Below are positions 8,648 through 24,157 of a stretch of 25,528 nucleotides of DNA, in pieces. The stretch is from an uncultured Chitinophagaceae bacterium (lineage in GTDB: Bacteria; Bacteroidota; Bacteroidia; Chitinophagales; Chitinophagaceae): contig CAKSVK010000030.1 of assembly GCA_934502905.1 (NCBI GenBank), positions 1 to 25,528 on the forward strand. Direction: 5' to 3'. The notes beneath the pieces were generated by a model. That model ran no database searches and was not told where the DNA came from. It was given only the letters and a program-made list of their open reading frames with translations. The translations under genes and the position numbers were made by a program. Every line of letters begins with the position of its first letter. Positions within the stretch are counted from its first letter, which is position 1.

Positions 8648-8709
8648 TCTCAATCACCGAGTCGTGACATGCAAGAGCTTTCACCGATACATTCAACCTG
8701 TATCTAACT

Positions 8710-8767
8710 GCGTGTGAGGACACGCGCCGGGGACAGTGGGCGCCCGGTTGCGCATTCCCACGCAACC
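8710..8767 (-). repeat. Dispersed two-hairpin element, copy at 8.7 kb (minus orientation)
   Basis: This lies between the convergent transporter (ends 8647) and membrane-protein gene (ends 8908). Hairpin B is at 8710-8725 (arms GCGTGT/ACACGC, 4-nt loop). Hairpin A is at 8746-8767 (arms GGTTGCG/CGCAACC), about 20 nt away. Read on the minus strand, the CAACCGGGC linker and the GGCGCGTGTCCTCAC segment match the copy at 23.0 kb. The rest of 8648-8907 holds no supported gene. Confidence 0.7.
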
Positions 8768-8907
8768 TTTGCACCCTGGATATCCGAAAACCATCAACTT
8801 CCTGCAGACCGATGAGAAACAATGACATGTTATTGGCACGCAAGGAAGTATCTACTTTGTGAGCGTTCTCCCTCAACAATATAACGCCCGGACATATCTT
8901 CGTGGCA

Positions 8908-14595: not shown

Positions 14596-14764
14596 GTTGC
14601 GTGTGCCCACGTAACGGATGCCGGGCAACCCATGGGGGGGGGGCCTACACCTGTCTTCACATGCAGCCTGCATATCGACCGAATCTATCAGTGACGGACA
14701 ACCGAACAGCGCAACCGGGCAAAGGCAGGCACCCCATTGCCCCTGCACGTGTCCTCACCTGCAG
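14596..14764 (+). repeat. Dispersed two-hairpin element, two degenerate copies at 14.6-14.8 kb
   Basis: Hairpin A at 14596-14615 has arms GTTGCGTG and CACGTAAC (8 bp with one G-T pair). A decayed hairpin B follows at 14645-14666. A second copy keeps only the right side of A (CGCAACCGGGC near 14710-14720) and a hairpin B at 14743-14764 (arms CTGCACGTG/CACCTGCAG, one mismatch, TCCT loop). A run of ten G lies at 14634-14643. This fills the spacer downstream of the hexosaminidase gene; no gene is supported in 14519-14810. Confidence 0.65.
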
Positions 14765-14810
14765 TTCGAAAACCGCTTCCTGACGCGGGATCAAGGCGCG
14801 ACCTGAAAAT

Positions 14811-17844: not shown

Positions 17845-18978
17845 ATGGCAAAGAACACCCGCAAACCCCGTATCATCCTGATCATCGTATTCATCATTGC
17901 TTTGCTGCCCCTGATCATCGGTAAACCCTATATCTACAAAGCGGTGGTATATAATTTCGCCAACGTAGACGATTACAAGATCTTTGATAACAACATTGTG
18001 CAACCCGCAGTCACACCTGCTGCCTGGCCGCAGGCAGAGGACTATACAACGGATATCCCCGGGGATTTGAATGATTATCTTGAAACGATCCGGTCGGCAG
18101 CACTGCTGGTAGTTAAAGACGGTAAAATAACCGTAGAAAAATACTGGCTGGACTACAACGACAGCTCCCTGACCAATTCTTTTTCGATGGCCAAAAGCAT
18201 CGTGAGCCTGCTCACGGGAATTGCCATCCGGGAAGGTAAGATATCATCTGTGGAAGATGCGGTGGGAAAATATATCCCGGAATTCGCGGAAGGAGAAAAA
18301 GCAAAGCTCAAAATAGTGCACCTGCTTACGATGAGCAGTGGCAGCAACTGGGATGAAAGTTATGCCAATCCTTTGTCTGTCACCACGCAGGCTTATTATG
18401 GATCTGATCTGTACCAGGTAGCTACATCGGTTGATATCGTGCAGGAGCCCGGCACGTATCATTTTTATAAAAGCGGTGATACACAGCTGCTGGGACTGGT
18501 AGTAGAAAAAGCCACCGGCAAATCGCTCAGCGATTATGCATCCGAAAAGCTCTGGCAACCTCTGGGGGCGCAGCATCCGGCGTTATGGAGCACAGACAAA
18601 GCGGGCGGAAATGAAAAAGCCTACTGCTGCTTCAACAGTAATGCCCGTGACTTTGCACGGCTGGGCCAGCTGATGCTGGACAGCGGTAAAATAAAAGGCA
18701 TCCCGGTCATCGACAGCGCTTATTATGCGGCTTCTGTTACGCCCTGCAATATCCCCGACGAAACGGGTAAAGCCTGCAACTATTACGGGTACCAATGGTG
18801 GATCCTTCCCGATCAGCCTGGTATTTTTTATGCCCGCGGTATATTGGGTCAGTATATCATCTGCATTCCTGAAAAAAAGTTGGTGATCGTAAGGCTGGGA
18901 GAAAAAAGGGATGAGAAAATAAACAATGTTCCCAATGAAGTATTGAAGCTGGTGGAATGGGGAAAAGGACTCCGTTAA
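17845..18978 (+). CDS. Serine hydrolase, class C beta-lactamase fold (PF00144)
   Basis: A 377-aa membrane-anchored or exported protein with one N-terminal hydrophobic helix (about 9-26) after a basic start (MAKNTRKPR). The penicillin-binding/beta-lactamase catalytic motifs are present: SMAK, Ser114 and Lys117, in NSFSMAKSIVSLLTG, and YKS at 208-210 in TYHFYKSGDTQLLG. A likely equivalent of the third motif is in YARGILGQYI. HLLTMSSGSNWDE and the DFARLGQLML helix are typical of the esterase/peptidase-like members of the family, which are not antibiotic resistance enzymes as a rule. Most likely an esterase or D-amino-acid amidase-like enzyme of unknown substrate. The ATG at 17845 is preferred to an upstream in-frame TTG. 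It converges with the Rrf2 operon across the tandem array. Confidence 0.88.
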   Translation: MAKNTRKPRIILIIVFIIALLPLIIGKPYIYKAVVYNFANVDDYKIFDNNIVQPAVTPAAWPQAEDYTTDIPGDLNDYLETIRSAALLVVKDGKITVEKYWLDYNDSSLTNSFSMAKSIVSLLTGIAIREGKISSVEDAVGKYIPEFAEGEKAKLKIVHLLTMSSGSNWDESYANPLSVTTQAYYGSDLYQVATSVDIVQEPGTYHFYKSGDTQLLGLVVEKATGKSLSDYASEKLWQPLGAQHPALWSTDKAGGNEKAYCCFNSNARDFARLGQLMLDSGKIKGIPVIDSAYYAASVTPCNIPDETGKACNYYGYQWWILPDQPGIFYARGILGQYIICIPEKKLVIVRLGEKRDEKINNVPNEVLKLVEWGKGLR

Positions 18979-19017
18979 AATAGTCGTTTATCTTCACTAT
19001 CGTCCTACGACCTGTCC

Positions 19018-19984
19018 GAGGCGTCTGAAATCAAGCCGGGATAGACCCTTCCTGCGTCAGGGTGACAAATAACGGAAGTAAGCTGGGCTTACAATCCTAA
19101 CGTCTCGCCGGGGTCTTCATGCAAAGGCATACGGGTAGCCATGAGACCCTGCTGCCAGATCAACAGATCCTTCCTGGTGTGCCAGGAAGCAGGATATAAC
19201 CACTGTAAATAAGCCATTGGGGAAATCGTGTGCGGACACGCGATAGGGCGGTCTCCTGCCTCTGCACGTGTCCGCATGTGCAGTTTAAGTGCAGATTATC
19301 CGGTCAGGGATGTCCCTCTGAGGCAGGACACGTCTGAAACCAGGCGGACATAGATCTTTCCTGCGTCAGGAGGACAAATAGCGGAAATAAGCTGCGCTTA
19401 CAATTCTAACGTCTCACCGGGGTCTTCATGCAAAGCTATGTGGCCAGTCATGAGACCTTGGCGTCGGATCAATAGACCCTTCCTGTGTGCCAGGAAGCAG
19501 GATATAACCACTGTAAATAAGCCATTGGGGAAGTCGCGTGCGGACACGCGACAGGGTGGTCTCTGCCTCTGCACGTGTCCTCACGTGCAGTTTAAGTGCA
19601 GATTATCCAGTCAGGGATGTCCTCTGAGGCACGAAGCGTCTGAAACCACGCGGATATAGACCCTTCCTGCGTCAGGGTGACAAATAACGGAAGTAAGCTG
19701 GGCTTACAATCCTAACATCTCGCCGGGGCCTTCATGCAAAGGCATACGGGTAGCCATGAGACCCTGCTGCCAGATCAACAGATCCTTCCCCTAGTGTGCC
19801 AGGAAGCAGGATATAACCACTGTAAATAAGCCATTGGGGAAGTCGCGTGCGGACTGGTCTCTGCCTCTGCACGTGTCCTCACGTGCAGTTTAAGTGCAGA
19901 TTATCCAGTCAGGGATGTCCCTCTGAGGCACGAAACGTCTGAAACCAGGGAATAGACCCTTCCTGCGTCAGGATGACAAAATAA
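19018..19984. repeat. Tandem array: three ~300-309-bp hairpin-rich units plus a partial fourth
   Basis: The anchor CGTCTGAAA recurs at 19022, 19331, 19637 and 19936, giving unit lengths of 309, 306 and 299. Each unit carries, in order, a CCTGCGTCAGG pseudo-palindrome, GTAAGC-TGG-GCTTAC (19078-19092 in unit 1), a long stem GGGTCTTCATG/CATGAGACCC (19111-19149), TTCCTGG/CCAGGAA (19171-19188), hairpin A (19225-19244, 19533-19552; truncated in unit 3) and hairpin B (19262-19283, 19569-19590, 19867-19888). No reading frame is conserved, since the period is not constant modulo 3. Unit 3 matches unit 1 in its first half and unit 2 in its second. The array fills the space between the convergent serine hydrolase and Rrf2 genes (18979-20003), which has no gene. 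Confidence 0.92.
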
Positions 19985-20003
19985 GAATTGTTGATTCAGG
20001 ACT

Positions 20004-20435
20004 TCACCCAACCAAATGAGCCAACCCCTTGCTGACGGGCTTGTACAGATCATTGATACGGTTGTTCAGGAACAACGCCTCCATGATATCGCGTCCCTTT
20101 TTGTAATCGTTGTGAATAGGACATGGGTGTGTGGAAGAGCAACGGGACAATCCCAGTCCACATTCCTTGAAAACATTTTCGCCGTCAATGGCTTTTACGA
20201 TCACCATGATCGGCTGTCCCAATTGGCGGGCTGTGATATAAAATCCCCCGGAAGGTCCTTTTACACTGTTGATCACCCCTTCCTTTACCAGCTTTTGCAG
20301 CAGCTTGCCAACGGTATGCCCGCTGGCATCAATATACTCCGCAATTTCTTTCACCCCGGCATTGATATGCGTTTCCTGTTTCGAGGCAAGGTAGATCACC
20401 GCTTTGATGGCATATTTGCAGGTAAGGCTCAGCAT
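20004..20435 (-). CDS. Rrf2-family Fe-S transcriptional regulator (NsrR/IscR-like)
   Basis: A 143-aa winged-helix repressor of the Rrf2 family. The N-terminal helix MLSLTCKYAIKAVIYLAS and the HTH and wing segment (about 28-70, VGKLLQKLVKEGVINSVKGPSGGF) are characteristic. Three cysteines, Cys92, Cys99 and Cys105 (FKECGLGLSRC then HPCPIH), sit where NsrR and IscR bind a [2Fe-2S] or [4Fe-4S] cluster, so it probably senses nitric oxide or Fe-S status. It is the last gene of the operon beginning at 24157 and starts 3 bases after the DUF59 gene's stop. A palindrome of the right size lies at the operon promoter, suggesting feedback control. The exact signal (NO, iron or redox) is inference. Confidence 0.9.
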   Translation of the reverse strand: MLSLTCKYAIKAVIYLASKQETHINAGVKEIAEYIDASGHTVGKLLQKLVKEGVINSVKGPSGGFYITARQLGQPIMVIVKAIDGENVFKECGLGLSRCSSTHPCPIHNDYKKGRDIMEALFLNNRINDLYKPVSKGLAHLVG

Positions 20436-20438
20436 GGT

Positions 20439-20768
20439 CTACCGGTTTAAAAATTTACGTCCTTCTTCCGAGATCTGCTCATAACTCCAGGGCGGGTCGA
20501 AGGTAAGCTCCACCTGCACCGTATCACCGGGAAAGAGCTGCTGCAACGCCTGTCTCACGCCATCCACGATCGATTCTCCCATGGGGCAAAACTGCGTGGT
20601 GAGCGTCATGGCCACGTATATCTTTTTTTCTTCCTCGTTGAAATCGATCTGGTATATCAGCCCGAGGTCTACCACGTTCAGCCCGATCTCGGGATCCATC
20701 ACCTGCTCCAGGGATGCCAGGGCAATGGTGGATTTAATATTATTATTGGTTATCAGGTTACTGGTCAT
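20439..20768 (-). CDS. DUF59/MIP18-type iron-sulfur assembly factor
   Basis: A 109-aa soluble protein of the DUF59 family (SufT/PaaD/MIP18-like), which helps load or mature Fe-S clusters on target proteins. The segment LEQVMDPEIGLNVVDLGLIY (20-39) is the family signature, Cys61 in TTQFCPMGES is the conserved cysteine, and VELTFDPPWS (about 86-95) closes the domain. Its ATG overlaps the membrane-protein stop by four bases (ATGA), implying translational coupling, and the Rrf2 gene follows after 3 bases. A role in rebuilding clusters damaged by NO or oxidants fits the rest of the operon. Confidence 0.88.
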   Translation of the reverse strand: MTSNLITNNNIKSTIALASLEQVMDPEIGLNVVDLGLIYQIDFNEEEKKIYVAMTLTTQFCPMGESIVDGVRQALQQLFPGDTVQVELTFDPPWSYEQISEEGRKFLNR

Positions 20769-22051
20769 TGTACGGGCTTATGCATGACTGTTTTCAATAC
20801 ATTAAAATTATACAGGGCGGCTGCCAGCAATAAGAGCAATGCCCCAACCTGCAGGACAAAAATAACGGATAATAACACGCCGGTGATGAACAAAACAAAC
20901 CCCGCGAGGTACGCCACCGCCATCACATTAAAAACCCTGCTGCTGAACAGGTCTTTCGGATTGGGCGCCTGCCCGGTCCCGGCTTTTTTATGATATACCT
21001 TGTTCCATATAATAAACGGCAGGGTCTTGAAGGTCATCCCCAGGATGATGGCCGTGATCCAGCCGAAAAAAACGGTGAACCCATACGCTATTACCAGCCG
21101 GGGATTTTCGCCCGTCAGCCATAAGGCTGCTATTATTATCCCCAGCAGCACCACCGGCAGCAGCATCATGATCACCGACAGCACGGATATCTTCACCTGC
21201 TCATCCACCTGGCGGCGTATCCGCTGCCGGTAACTTTTACGGCAGTAATACCCGAACAGCACCAGGGCGGTTGCGATCGTCAACACCGGTAGCATAAAAT
21301 AATACACCGGCAATACAGCGAAAAACAAGACCGCAAAAGAAAGCAGCCCGGTATTTACCAGGACATAGACCCACCACAACAAACGGGCATTGCTGTATTT
21401 CGAGATCAGGAACATGGGTATCAGCCGCGACCCCACCCCGATAACGAGCAGCAGGAACCAGCCGACGATCCCCAAGTGCGCATGCAGCGAAAGGTAATAC
21501 AACGAGTCCTCCGCGAATATGCGGGTGGAAAAATTATACACCAGCAGCAGCCCGATAATAGTCGTGATCAGCAACCACAGCCCTGCGGTAAACACAAATA
21601 CGGCATGCACATTTTCGGACTTTGAGCGGGACATGCTCACCCCCATGTTGACGAGGTACACCACTACCCCGCTCACCACCAGCTCTCCGCCCCGGCGGGC
21701 CAGGAAATTCATATCAAAATGATAAAACGCATACACCAGCAACGGGATACCAATGCCGGTAAGTATAAAAGAAATATATGCCAGGGTATTGCTGTACAGC
21801 TTCCCCTCTATCAGCACCGGCACCAGTTGGTGACTGGCGCCCAGGATGATCATGGTGCCCCAGCCCAAAGCCATGATATGCGTAACCGCGATCACATGCG
21901 GATGAAAATAATGCCGCCCGAACGCCGGCGCCGCCACCAGCAAAAGAAGCGTGGCTGCTAAAAACGCTAAGGCGGCATATACATAAAAGGGCAGCACCAC
22001 CTTGTAGGAAGTCGTTTTAACCGGACCCGTATTTGCTGCAAAGCCCAACAT
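20765..22051 (-). CDS. His-rich multispan membrane protein, heme-copper-oxidase-I/NnrS-like
   Basis: A 428-aa protein with about twelve hydrophobic helices. Conserved-looking histidines cluster in two places: HYFHPHVIAVTHIMALGWG with ASHQLVPVL (His47, 50, 52, 58, 74) and LSLHAHLGIVGWF followed by GVGSRLIPMF (His190, 192). This HxH/LGW pattern recalls heme-copper oxidase subunit I relatives and NnrS-type membrane proteins, so heme or copper binding and a role in nitric oxide tolerance are plausible. It lacks the complete set of six histidine ligands expected of a normal oxidase or NO reductase, so I do not call it an enzyme of that class. It is tightly packed in the operon (1-base gap upstream, 4-base overlap downstream). 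Confidence 0.75.
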   Translation of the reverse strand: MLGFAANTGPVKTTSYKVVLPFYVYAALAFLAATLLLLVAAPAFGRHYFHPHVIAVTHIMALGWGTMIILGASHQLVPVLIEGKLYSNTLAYISFILTGIGIPLLVYAFYHFDMNFLARRGGELVVSGVVVYLVNMGVSMSRSKSENVHAVFVFTAGLWLLITTIIGLLLVYNFSTRIFAEDSLYYLSLHAHLGIVGWFLLLVIGVGSRLIPMFLISKYSNARLLWWVYVLVNTGLLSFAVLFFAVLPVYYFMLPVLTIATALVLFGYYCRKSYRQRIRRQVDEQVKISVLSVIMMLLPVVLLGIIIAALWLTGENPRLVIAYGFTVFFGWITAIILGMTFKTLPFIIWNKVYHKKAGTGQAPNPKDLFSSRVFNVMAVAYLAGFVLFITGVLLSVIFVLQVGALLLLLAAALYNFNVLKTVMHKPVQ

Positions 22052-22052
22052 A

Positions 22053-22865
22053 TTATTGCCTGAATATTAAAAGGTGCACTTCACCGTCGCTGATCTCCCG
22101 GATGCGGTAGCCGTAACCTCTCTCCGCCAGCTCCGGCAGCAGGAACACGGGGATGCGCTTGTGATACACGAACAACGCGGTATCCGCCGGCAGTGTTTCC
22201 AGCGTAGACAGGATGGTCATCATCGGTCCCGGCATCTCCAGGTGCCGCACATCAATGGTCTGCATTTTCTGCTCAAACTGTTCCAGCAACGTTTCCCAGC
22301 CCTCTCCTGCCCCGGTTTCTTTCGCCGTGGCTGCCACGGTTACCTCCCCGGCCGATTTCCTGTAAAAATAGGTCTCTATCCAGTTGGGCTGTATGGTATC
22401 TGCGTAAGACACAAATCCCTGCTTCCCCAGCAGGGCCATCAGCGGCGTGGGCTCAAAGGTATTGATGATCTTCAGCACCTGTCCGGGCTCCACAGTCTTG
22501 ACTTTTTGAAGGATGAGCTGCAGGGGATCTTTCCCGGAGGCGATCACCGGGCGCACATCCAGGTCTATGATCTGCTCTTTTTTCAGGGAGCTGATAAAAT
22601 CCGGTAAGGGCTTTTTATCCTCCGTTTCCACAACGACGGTATCGTCTGTTTCAAATCCCAGCGGCTTCAGCTTGTGGAAGAAATCGGCTACGCGGCAATT
22701 GCCCACCTTTGCGGCCATCGCCAGGCTGGTCCTGCCCGCCATCACTTTGCGCAGGATCGGGTTCCGCAGCTTTTCAAACTTCGGACTCACCGAAATGATC
22801 GCGTCCAGCGCAGCAGGGTTCGCTTTCAGGATAGCGGCAATTTTTGTAGCGGCGTTGATAGTCAT
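22053..22865 (-). CDS. DUF1858 plus tandem DUF2249 protein
   Basis: A 270-aa cytoplasmic protein with three modules. DUF1858 at about 2-62 begins MTINAATKIAAILKANPAAL and contains SPKFEKLRNPILRKVM and AAKVGNCRV. The first DUF2249 (about 98-168) has IIDLDVRPVIASGKDPLQLI. The second (about 202-268) has TIDVRHLEMPGPMMTIL and ELAERGYGYRI. DUF2249 is TusA-like in fold and recurs in the RIC gene upstream, suggesting shared redox or sulfur/metal handling; the biochemical role is not established. The ATG at 22865 is chosen because it coincides with the DUF1858 start; a GTG 21 bases upstream is possible. It is separated from ric by 341 bases of repeats and is followed after one base by the membrane-protein gene. 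Confidence 0.85.
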   Translation of the reverse strand: MTINAATKIAAILKANPAALDAIISVSPKFEKLRNPILRKVMAGRTSLAMAAKVGNCRVADFFHKLKPLGFETDDTVVVETEDKKPLPDFISSLKKEQIIDLDVRPVIASGKDPLQLILQKVKTVEPGQVLKIINTFEPTPLMALLGKQGFVSYADTIQPNWIETYFYRKSAGEVTVAATAKETGAGEGWETLLEQFEQKMQTIDVRHLEMPGPMMTILSTLETLPADTALFVYHKRIPVFLLPELAERGYGYRIREISDGEVHLLIFRQ

Positions 22866-22931
22866 TATTATTTTTTTATTTGTCACTCCGGAGAAGAAGG
22901 CAGCTTTTCACCGGGGAACCTCATCATATTT

Positions 22932-23026
22932 CACGCAAAGCCGCCACGAAGCGCAAAGAACGCCAGTCACCTTTGGATGCTTTTGTCTTTGCGATACTTT
23001 GCGTCATTTTTTGCGGACTTTGCGTG
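22932..23026. repeat. Imperfect inverted repeat with CGCAAAG arms
   Basis: CACGCAAAG (22932-22940) and CTTTGCGTG (23018-23026) are exact inverted ends. Internal blocks CGCAAAGA and TCTTTGCG continue the symmetry. CGCAAAG-rich palindromes of this type are familiar as intergenic elements in Bacteroidota. Its right end overlaps hairpin A of the next element. This and the two following elements fill most of the gene-free 22866-23206 spacer. Confidence 0.7.
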
Positions 23027-23077
23027 TCCCCCACGCAACCGGGCCTCCCGCTGCCCTGGCGCGTGTCCTCACGCGCC
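23020..23077 (+). repeat. Dispersed two-hairpin element, copy at 23.0 kb
   Basis: Hairpin A at 23020-23038 has arms TTGCGTG and CACGCAA with a 5-nt loop. Hairpin B at 23058-23077 has arms GGCGCGTG and CACGCGCC with a TCCT loop. The linker contains CAACCGGGC and CTGCCC as in the other copies. It lies just downstream of the ric stop. Confidence 0.75.
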
Positions 23078-23097
23078 GTAAGAAAACACCTCCATCC

Positions 23098-23196
23098 CGT
23101 CATCTCGAGCGGAGGAAGAGATCTCATCAAGCGACAAGAGATCTCTCATTCCACTTCCTACCCGCCCGGCAGGCGAGCGTTCCATTCGGGATGACG
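23098..23196. repeat. 99-bp MITE-like inverted repeat downstream of ric
   Basis: The ends CGTCATCTCGA (23098-23108) and TCGGGATGACG (23186-23196) are inverted with one mismatch. An inner perfect pair AGAGATCTC (23117-23125) and GAGATCTCT (23138-23146) forms a 9-bp stem. This GTCATCyCGA...GAGATCT design is a widespread intergenic element in bacterial genomes. It ends 10 bases from the ric stop codon. Confidence 0.75.
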
Positions 23197-23206
23197 TAAA
23201 AGCATA

Positions 23207-24157
23207 TCAGTTCAGCTTCTCTTCCAGCGCCACCGCTTTCGGGAACAGGATATTGTTCTCCAGGTGAACATGAAGATGAAGATCGTCTTCAAACTCCTCC
23301 AGCATTTTAAACAACAGTCCATAGCTTGCGCAGGCATCTTCCGGCAGATTGTAATCGCTGCTCAGGGCACGGATATCTTCCAGGCAACTGCCGGCCGATA
23401 CATGCTCCGTTTCCATAGCCTGCACCGCATTTTTCACAGAAACCGCCTGTGTAACCCCATCCCCTGTATTCCCGGACACCAGCCTTTTCACCAGCGGGAA
23501 CAATTGCTTTTCCTCTTTATCCAGGTGCTCGCCCAGCTCTTCATACAACTGCTCCACCAATTGCCGGATCGAGATCAGTTCGGGGTGACGGTCCCCATGT
23601 ACCTCCGCCACCTTCAAAGCATATTTCCTTATTTCCGGCAGGTTCTTCCGAACATAGCTATGGTGCATGTTCACGATATAATCCGCCAGGAAGTCCAGTC
23701 CCCATTCGTTATACGGCAGGGGGCGACCGGTAATATTCTTATCCGCCTGCTGCAATTCTTTCTCCACTTTTGTGCTGTCGATCCCCTTTTCCGTGCAGGC
23801 TTCCTTCACGGTCTTTTTCCCGCCGCAGCAGAAGTCCAGCCCGTATTTTTTAAACACCTCCGCTTTCCGCAGGTCCTTCGCCGCAATTTCCCCCAGCGTC
23901 TCGTTACTGCTGCCGCTGACCTTTTTGCTGATCCGCACCTTCCACCATTGCGGTCCCTCTTCCAGGTACTCCCATATAAACACGTCTCCCCGCTCTCCCA
24001 GCAACTGGTAATACAGCGGCTTGGGATCATGATCGTTGTGTATGGTCAGGCTCTCTCCTTCCGCCAGCGCATCAAACCGCGCAAAAATAGCCGGGTGCTT
24101 TTTCCTGGGCTCCAGCAGGGTCACGTCCAGGACATTCTCGTTGTTCGTTATGATCAT
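23207..24157 (-). CDS. ric: Iron-sulfur cluster repair di-iron protein RIC with N-terminal DUF2249
   Basis: A cytoplasmic repair protein of the YtfE/ScdA/DnrN family that restores Fe-S clusters after nitrosative or oxidative damage. There are three modules in 316 aa. An N-terminal DUF2249 (about 8-78, with IFARFDALAEGESLTIHNDHDP) is fused to the ScdA_N/DUF542 segment (about 86-140), whose signature is KYGLDFCCGG with Cys110 and Cys111. A C-terminal hemerythrin-like domain (about 150-310) has the expected di-iron ligands: His166 (MHHSY), His211 and Glu215 (EHLDKEE), His252 (ETEHV), and His294/298 with Glu300. YtfE itself lacks the DUF2249 part, so this is a longer variant common in Bacteroidota. 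It is the first gene of the operon, with a promoter and an operator-like palindrome upstream. Confidence 0.93.
   Translation of the reverse strand: MIITNNENVLDVTLLEPRKKHPAIFARFDALAEGESLTIHNDHDPKPLYYQLLGERGDVFIWEYLEEGPQWWKVRISKKVSGSSNETLGEIAAKDLRKAEVFKKYGLDFCCGGKKTVKEACTEKGIDSTKVEKELQQADKNITGRPLPYNEWGLDFLADYIVNMHHSYVRKNLPEIRKYALKVAEVHGDRHPELISIRQLVEQLYEELGEHLDKEEKQLFPLVKRLVSGNTGDGVTQAVSVKNAVQAMETEHVSAGSCLEDIRALSSDYNLPEDACASYGLLFKMLEEFEDDLHLHVHLENNILFPKAVALEEKLN

Follow-up and report, generated by a model that had tools for sequence, protein, structure and literature searches.

A tandem array of probable REP-type palindromes between convergent genes of a Chitinophagaceae-like genome

The gap between two convergent genes in the window, by which we mean the whole 25,528-nucleotide stretch of DNA analysed, holds a tandem cluster of what are most likely REP-type palindromes, similar to BIMEs or REPINs, in a Chitinophagaceae-like genome (probability about 0.8). 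We privilege the reading that the array consists of RAYT-mobilised repeats amplified in place and by now partly decayed. The array belongs to a known kind of element, with a lineage-specific palindrome family, and does not represent a new RNA. The preliminary description of this DNA knew of no named family for the repeated unit, a view that is not borne out because parts of the unit behave as REP/BIME palindromes linked to a RAYT.

TRF detects one tandem array in the window (19022-19980, period 309, 3.2 copies, 86% matches). The unit starts at 19018, 19327 and 19633 and the partial fourth at 19932 give spacings of 309, 306 and 299, confirming the three full units plus a partial fourth first described. 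Ungapped sub-blocks recur at spacings of 309/306/296 and 307/298. The units are:

19018 to 19326, plus strand: unit 1 of the tandem array
19327 to 19632, plus strand: unit 2 of the tandem array
19633 to 19931, plus strand: unit 3, its first half like unit 1 and its second half like unit 2, with an 11-nt deletion through a hairpin
19932 to 19984, plus strand: partial unit 4, the first ~53 nt of the unit

The left neighbour is a plus-strand hydrolase gene of beta-lactamase fold (Pfam Beta-lactamase, 118.5 bits) ending at 18978, and the right neighbour a minus-strand Rrf2 gene ending at 20004; the two face each other, as first described. Their stop codons bound a gap of 1025 nt, of which the array occupies 967 nt (94%). 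It had been said to fill the whole gap; about 40 nt on the left and 19 nt on the right are left over. Minus-strand genes at 20004-24157 code for hemerythrin/ScdA-N, DUF2249/DUF1858, COX1-like, FeS-assembly and Rrf2 proteins, in what we take to resemble a nitric-oxide or iron-sulfur stress operon.

The array has no ORF of 90 aa or more, the longest at a threshold of 30 aa having 73 aa, and a protein-coding repeat was dropped as a candidate. ORF length is a better support for its non-coding nature than the earlier argument from unit lengths modulo 3, which is weak since 309 and 306 are both divisible by 3 and only the last spacing breaks the pattern. The folding energy of unit 2 is 3.8 s.d. on the plus strand and 3.7 s.d. 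on the minus strand below that of dinucleotide shuffles, 0 of 100 being as low on either strand. The first description of the array as multi-hairpin is right, but not every unit retains all hairpins: in unit 3 one is cut by an 11-nt deletion and one arm of another is altered.

Palindromes of at least three types make up the mosaic of each ~305-bp unit, and they also occur apart. Its central hairpin, here termed REP-d, has a 15-bp stem with a bulge and a loop of ~22 nt. A CTTCCTG/CAGGAAG hairpin is also among the palindromes of each unit. The elements of the array and their relatives in the window are (bit scores refer to the REP-d covariance model R1 described below):

19100 to 19159, plus strand: REP-d copy 1, the central hairpin, 66.6 bits to R1
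19409 to 19468, plus strand: REP-d copy 2, 66.1 bits to R1
19715 to 19774, plus strand: REP-d copy 3, 59.8 bits to R1
19038 to 19069, unstranded: short palindrome TTCCTGCGTCAGGRTGACA, ending in TGTC on the minus strand; it recurs at 19347-19378, 19653-19684 and 19949-19980
19170 to 19189, unstranded: perfect hairpin of 8 bp, CTTCCTGG/CCAGGAAG; the unit 2 copy is at 19479-19497 and that of unit 3 is changed
19533 to 19590, unstranded: inverted hairpin pair of unit 2 with core GTGTCC(T/G)CAC (members 19533-19552 and 19569-19590)
19262 to 19283 (unit 1) and 19867 to 19888 (unit 3), unstranded: second member of this pair, the first being deleted in unit 3
8706 to 8766, minus strand: dispersed intergenic element related to the inverted pair (72% over 61 columns)
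14738 to 14766, plus strand: dispersed intergenic element related to one of the pair's hairpins (93% over 29 nt)
23032 to 23079, plus strand: dispersed intergenic element related to the pair, with 67% over 48 nt and, in its core half, 91% over 22 nt

REP-d is found in the window in the array alone (3 copies), the next-best match to R1 having an E-value of 0.055. The GTGTCC(T/G)CAC palindrome lies at three further intergenic sites besides the array; its core GTGTCCTCAC, a motif picked after the relatives had been seen, occurs 7 times in the window with at most one mismatch (4 inside the array) against 0.73 expected. Besides the hairpin at 14738, the intergenic gap 14610-14800 carries a more distant one of GTGTCC type at 14640-14668 (69%), and 98 bp separate the two. 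Adjoining the hairpin at 23032-23079, the segment 23098-23197 starts with CCCGTCATC, ends with GGGATGACGT and has AGAGATCT repeated within; read by eye, it looks like a separate palindrome pair of CGTC type.

Searches with the COX1-like protein of the adjacent operon yielded 31 loci, the nearest by identity of this protein being those of Agriterribacter humi (76%) and of a Chitinophagaceae MAG (77%). When six of these genomes were searched with the array by blast, A. humi gave 42 short matches at E<=10; at E<=1e-3 it has 9, and many correspond to window positions 19103-19151 or their copies. Among 12 genomes of the nearest sampled genus group, A. humi included, 7 match at E<=1e-3 through pieces of 25 to ~70 nt, mostly REP-d. 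Covariance model R1, with 15 pairs and built from 27 REP-d copies, gives rough E-values; at E<=1e-3 it recovers at least 188 REP-d matches in 8 of the 12 genomes (at least 48, 44, 36, 28, 13, 11, 5 and 3). These counts, from at least 3 to at least 48 per genome, are under the more than 100 copies described as usual for REPs in PMC2817692. Sixty genomes drawn from the family include 5 with REP-d, one of them A. humi; the other four have 6, 4, 3 and 2 matches under stricter filters. A family-wide blast finds at least 4 of 294 genomes at E<=1e-5, at least 2 through REP-d and at least 2 through the short palindrome. An exact REP-d pattern whose loop range was too short returned 1 copy in 1 of the 12 genomes and carries no evidential weight.

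The relatives of palindromes other than REP-d are scattered. The short palindrome TTCCTGCGTCAGGRTGACA matches elsewhere in A. humi and in at least 2 of the 294 family genomes, and its exact pattern is found in 1 of the 12 genus-group genomes. The window element at 8700-8768 gives two weak matches, in 2 of these 12. Nowhere else in the sequence sets searched does the complete ~305-bp unit recur: a 22-mer from its best-conserved stretch is absent from the genome contigs searched, an 18-mer has no match in viral contigs, and distant blastn against plasmid records gives no match. Rfam has 0 matches at the gathering score and 0 at E<=1 over 18950-20050. Further copies in relatives, which the preliminary description had proposed to look for, thus exist for REP-d, one palindrome of the unit, but not for the unit as a whole.

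REP-d is an extragenic element in these relatives. In 30 loci, where the ORFs of a simple caller cover 70% of the sequence, 34 of 37 REP-d copies fall mainly outside ORFs. By the orientation of the flanking ORFs, the 34 divide into 7 convergent, 8 divergent and 9 unidirectional cases, with 10 more at contig or excerpt edges, a split that reveals no preference of REP-d for convergent gaps. Inverted REP-d partners adjoin at several loci (L066, L069, L124, L131, L134, L140). In A. humi, REP-d is dense over ~40 kb around a RAYT gene (C1:39-78 kb of G001, L062-L064), with nearly all copies on the same strand; the same species has a 188-bp tandem repeat (2.9 copies, 88% match) at L065:3458-3997. A Flavobacteriales MAG carries, beside the operon with the COX1-like gene, a 72-bp tandem array without REP-d (L015:9421-9959, 7.5 copies, 97% match).

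Comparison of REP-d copies shows that the stem is constrained and that compensatory change keeps an imperfect palindrome, a conclusion that applies to REP-d only among the palindromes of the unit. In 50 copies aligned with MAFFT, 94.1% of stem cells are paired, and 6 pairs and 25 cells are changed on both sides; 0 of 500 shuffles are as high for paired share, two-sided pairs or two-sided cells, and 6 of 500 reach the value for further pair types. Sliding the stem partner lowers pairing in these copies to 38-42%. With 70 copies fitted to R1, an alignment that leans to the model, 92.6% are paired, and 7 pairs and 39 cells are two-sided (1 of 500 and 0 of 500 shuffles). Covariation is weaker in the first 27 copies, where shuffles attain the observed count of two-sided pairs in 31 of 500 cases and the score in 10 of 500, and RNAalifold alone on these 27 proposes 5 pairs, none compensated. 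The 15-pair stem tested was set by hand and the shuffles leave the relatedness of the copies in place. The covariation check that accompanied the original claim, on a model built from the hits, is thus positive for this one palindrome. The foot of REP-d reads (G/T)TC in 61 of 70 copies (CGTC in 7, TGTC in 9), is CGTC in units 1 and 2 of the array, and is GTAG or GTGG in 0 of 70.

The link to a transposase comes from two relatives. In A. humi, REP-d flanks on both sides a gene (L063:4037-4741; L086) whose protein scores 85.5 bits against a cut-off of 80 with NCBIfam NF047646 (REP-associated tyrosine transposases) and 22.1 with Pfam Y1_Tnp, just below the cut-off of 23. Two of three other RAYTs pass NF047646 (108.5 and 109.6) and the one of L088 fails (74.7). 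RAYT searches gave 48 matches in 11 of the 12 genus-group genomes, of which 30 were taken as loci. REP-d lies within 500 bp of the RAYT in 3 of the 3 loci with at least 90% RAYT identity (L086, L087 and the fragment L097), and in 0 of the 27 more distant ones. Inspection by eye of L088-L091, which have distant RAYTs, reveals other hairpins beside the gene. Such a distribution agrees with PMC2817692 and PMC6006769, which describe every RAYT as paired with a REP of its own. Four genomes with at least 11, 13, 36 and 28 REP-d matches (G009, G010, G011 and G014) have no close RAYT: their best are none at E<=1e-4, 52% identity (interrupted by a stop), 32% and 46%, respectively. They do not fit a strict REP-d/RAYT pairing. 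The conserved motifs of 25 RAYT pieces are NHxH (22), Y[ILV]xxNP (23) and SS after Y[ILV]xxNP (21); the RAYT adjoining REP-d has NHMH and YIHYNP.

The array can be compared with three described systems. BIMEs and ordered REPIN clusters, as described in PMC2817692 and PMC3116915, share with it short extragenic palindromes of mixed types, inverted pairs and tandem reiteration with flanking DNA; inverted pairs and tandem reiteration are seen in the array, in the pair of unit 2 and in relatives, where a REP-d cluster also lies beside a RAYT (L087). The array differs from them by its longer unit (~305 bp), its several palindrome types, a long-stem hairpin, the lack of a GTAG foot and a Bacteroidota host. 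Ordered tandem REPIN clusters and hybrid BIMEs are both on record in these two papers; hybrid BIMEs combine REPs of two RAYTs (PMC2817692) and, by analogy, the present array would be of that kind. The second system, RAYT group 5 or TnpA-Y1 subclass 2.6, is reported from Bacteroidetes with atypical structures that also lack a GTAG/GTGG foot (PMC6006769). It resembles the present case in its Bacteroidota hosts, its NHxH, YIHxNP and SS motifs and its non-GTAG flanking hairpins, and differs in that NH[LIV]H and YIH[QN]NP are the motifs tabulated there, against NHMH/YIHYNP in the RAYT beside REP-d. CGTC-tagged REPs, the third, are reported from Bacteroidetes, with TGTC as a stated variant of the tag, and recall the TGTC end of the short palindrome and the (G/T)TC foot of REP-d, CGTC in units 1 and 2. 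According to PMC3733652, they have 8-9 bp in the stem and 4-5 nt in the loop, do not adjoin transposase genes and have no transposase dedicated to them. REP-d, with its 15-bp stem, ~22-nt loop, RAYT alongside and minority of CGTC or TGTC feet, does not belong to them. It has instead the features of a REP in being a compensated palindrome, extragenic and, in relatives, RAYT-flanking, the GTAG/GTGG foot being absent.

By analogy with these systems, and from the linkage known in relatives, we infer that a RAYT mobilises the palindromes of the array in this host. The transposase (RAYT/TnpA-REP) would recognise the hairpin on single-stranded DNA, cut near its foot and join or copy it, seeding palindromes into intergenic sites. 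A composite unit would then be multiplied in place, whether through the activity of the transposase or because units slipped and crossed over unequally, in a space between the 3' ends of convergent genes that would tolerate it. The array may also have arisen from the same palindromes with no transposase at all, the hairpin-rich DNA undergoing replication slippage or unequal crossing-over; this explanation is a serious one, with perhaps one chance in three. Unit 3 is a recombinant, identical to unit 1 at 156 of 165 positions in its first half (135 of 164 to unit 2) and to unit 2 at 128 of 128 in its second. A single breakpoint fits 30 of 33 informative sites, as well as only 0.0002 of 20000 shuffles do. 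Of the roles first suggested, that of a recombination element is nearest to the present reading. The dispersal of the palindromes does not extend to the complete 305-bp unit, and the window carries no RAYT (tblastn of 25 RAYT pieces, best E-value 0.038), which also suit a transposase-free origin. Tandem repeats abutting RAYT matches in three relatives, however, point to the enzyme. In L087 (817-1172), REP-d and a partner hairpin form a tandem repeat (130 bp x 2.7, 92% match) 10 bp from the RAYT match; in L088 (1183-1551) a 183-bp repeat overlaps the start of the match, and in L089 (2054-2220) a 91-bp repeat lies 32 bp from it. Yet 27 of the 30 RAYT loci have no abutting array: L090 has a 209-bp repeat ~400 bp away, and the remaining 26 have no array of period 40 or more. 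Units made by a transposase and recombination between units are not exclusive.

The array is probably in the main a by-product, not a selected device. A selected function between the convergent genes, as a two-way transcription block, an mRNA 3'-end protector or a gyrase/supercoiling site, is improbable, although the location between two 3' ends, the strong folding of both strands and such roles reported for REPs in the literature speak for it. Terminator-like sites, 1 found against 1.1 expected and that one inside the end of the Rrf2 gene, are not above chance; a selected two-way block, the bidirectional transcription block proposed earlier, is possible but unsupported. The recombination and hairpin decay of unit 3 count against any role requiring every hairpin. 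REP-d is found in 0 of the 31 loci around the same operon, its dispersed copies have no convergent bias, and A. humi has another sequence after Rrf2; the next gene there also differs, and the locus therefore does not qualify as a clean empty site.

Tandem genes for a structured non-coding RNA, another of the roles proposed earlier, are highly improbable. The folding z-scores (-3.8 and -3.7) and the covarying REP-d stem would suit them, but one stem alone is conserved elsewhere, at scattered places and not as a 305-nt unit, and the array has no Rfam match and zero promoter-like sites. Without these, and with no excess of terminator-like sites, neither a dedicated RNA nor an intrinsic terminator block has positive support. 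An integron-type or MITE-type array is the least probable of all: the many REP-d copies of A. humi C1:39-78 kb, in the same orientation every one to a few kb, recall a cassette array, but the gene beside REP-d is a RAYT and not an integrase, the 305-bp unit has no bounding inverted repeat, and the integron reading was dropped after inspection of the ORFs between REP-d copies, which vary in kind and do not accompany the hairpins one to one.

The reading of RAYT-mobilised repeats provides a concrete palindrome family and a likely transposase for Chitinophagaceae, whose RAYT-linked hairpins are described in PMC6006769 merely as atypical; in the open-licence PMC literature we found no paper on REPs of Chitinophagaceae. 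As a tentative and rather doubtful extension, RAYTs of this Bacteroidota lineage may use (G/T)TC at the foot of a long hairpin as guide instead of GTAG and build composite clusters from several unrelated palindrome types; the array would then be a mobile mosaic of several families, the product of an uncharacterised RAYT-REP pairing. If so, the CGTC/GTC-footed palindromes, described without a dedicated transposase, would gain a candidate enzyme. The REP-d matches, at least 188 in 8 genomes, together with the copies that flank RAYTs and the tandem arrays, make it possible to test which guide sequence such RAYTs use and how arrays form.
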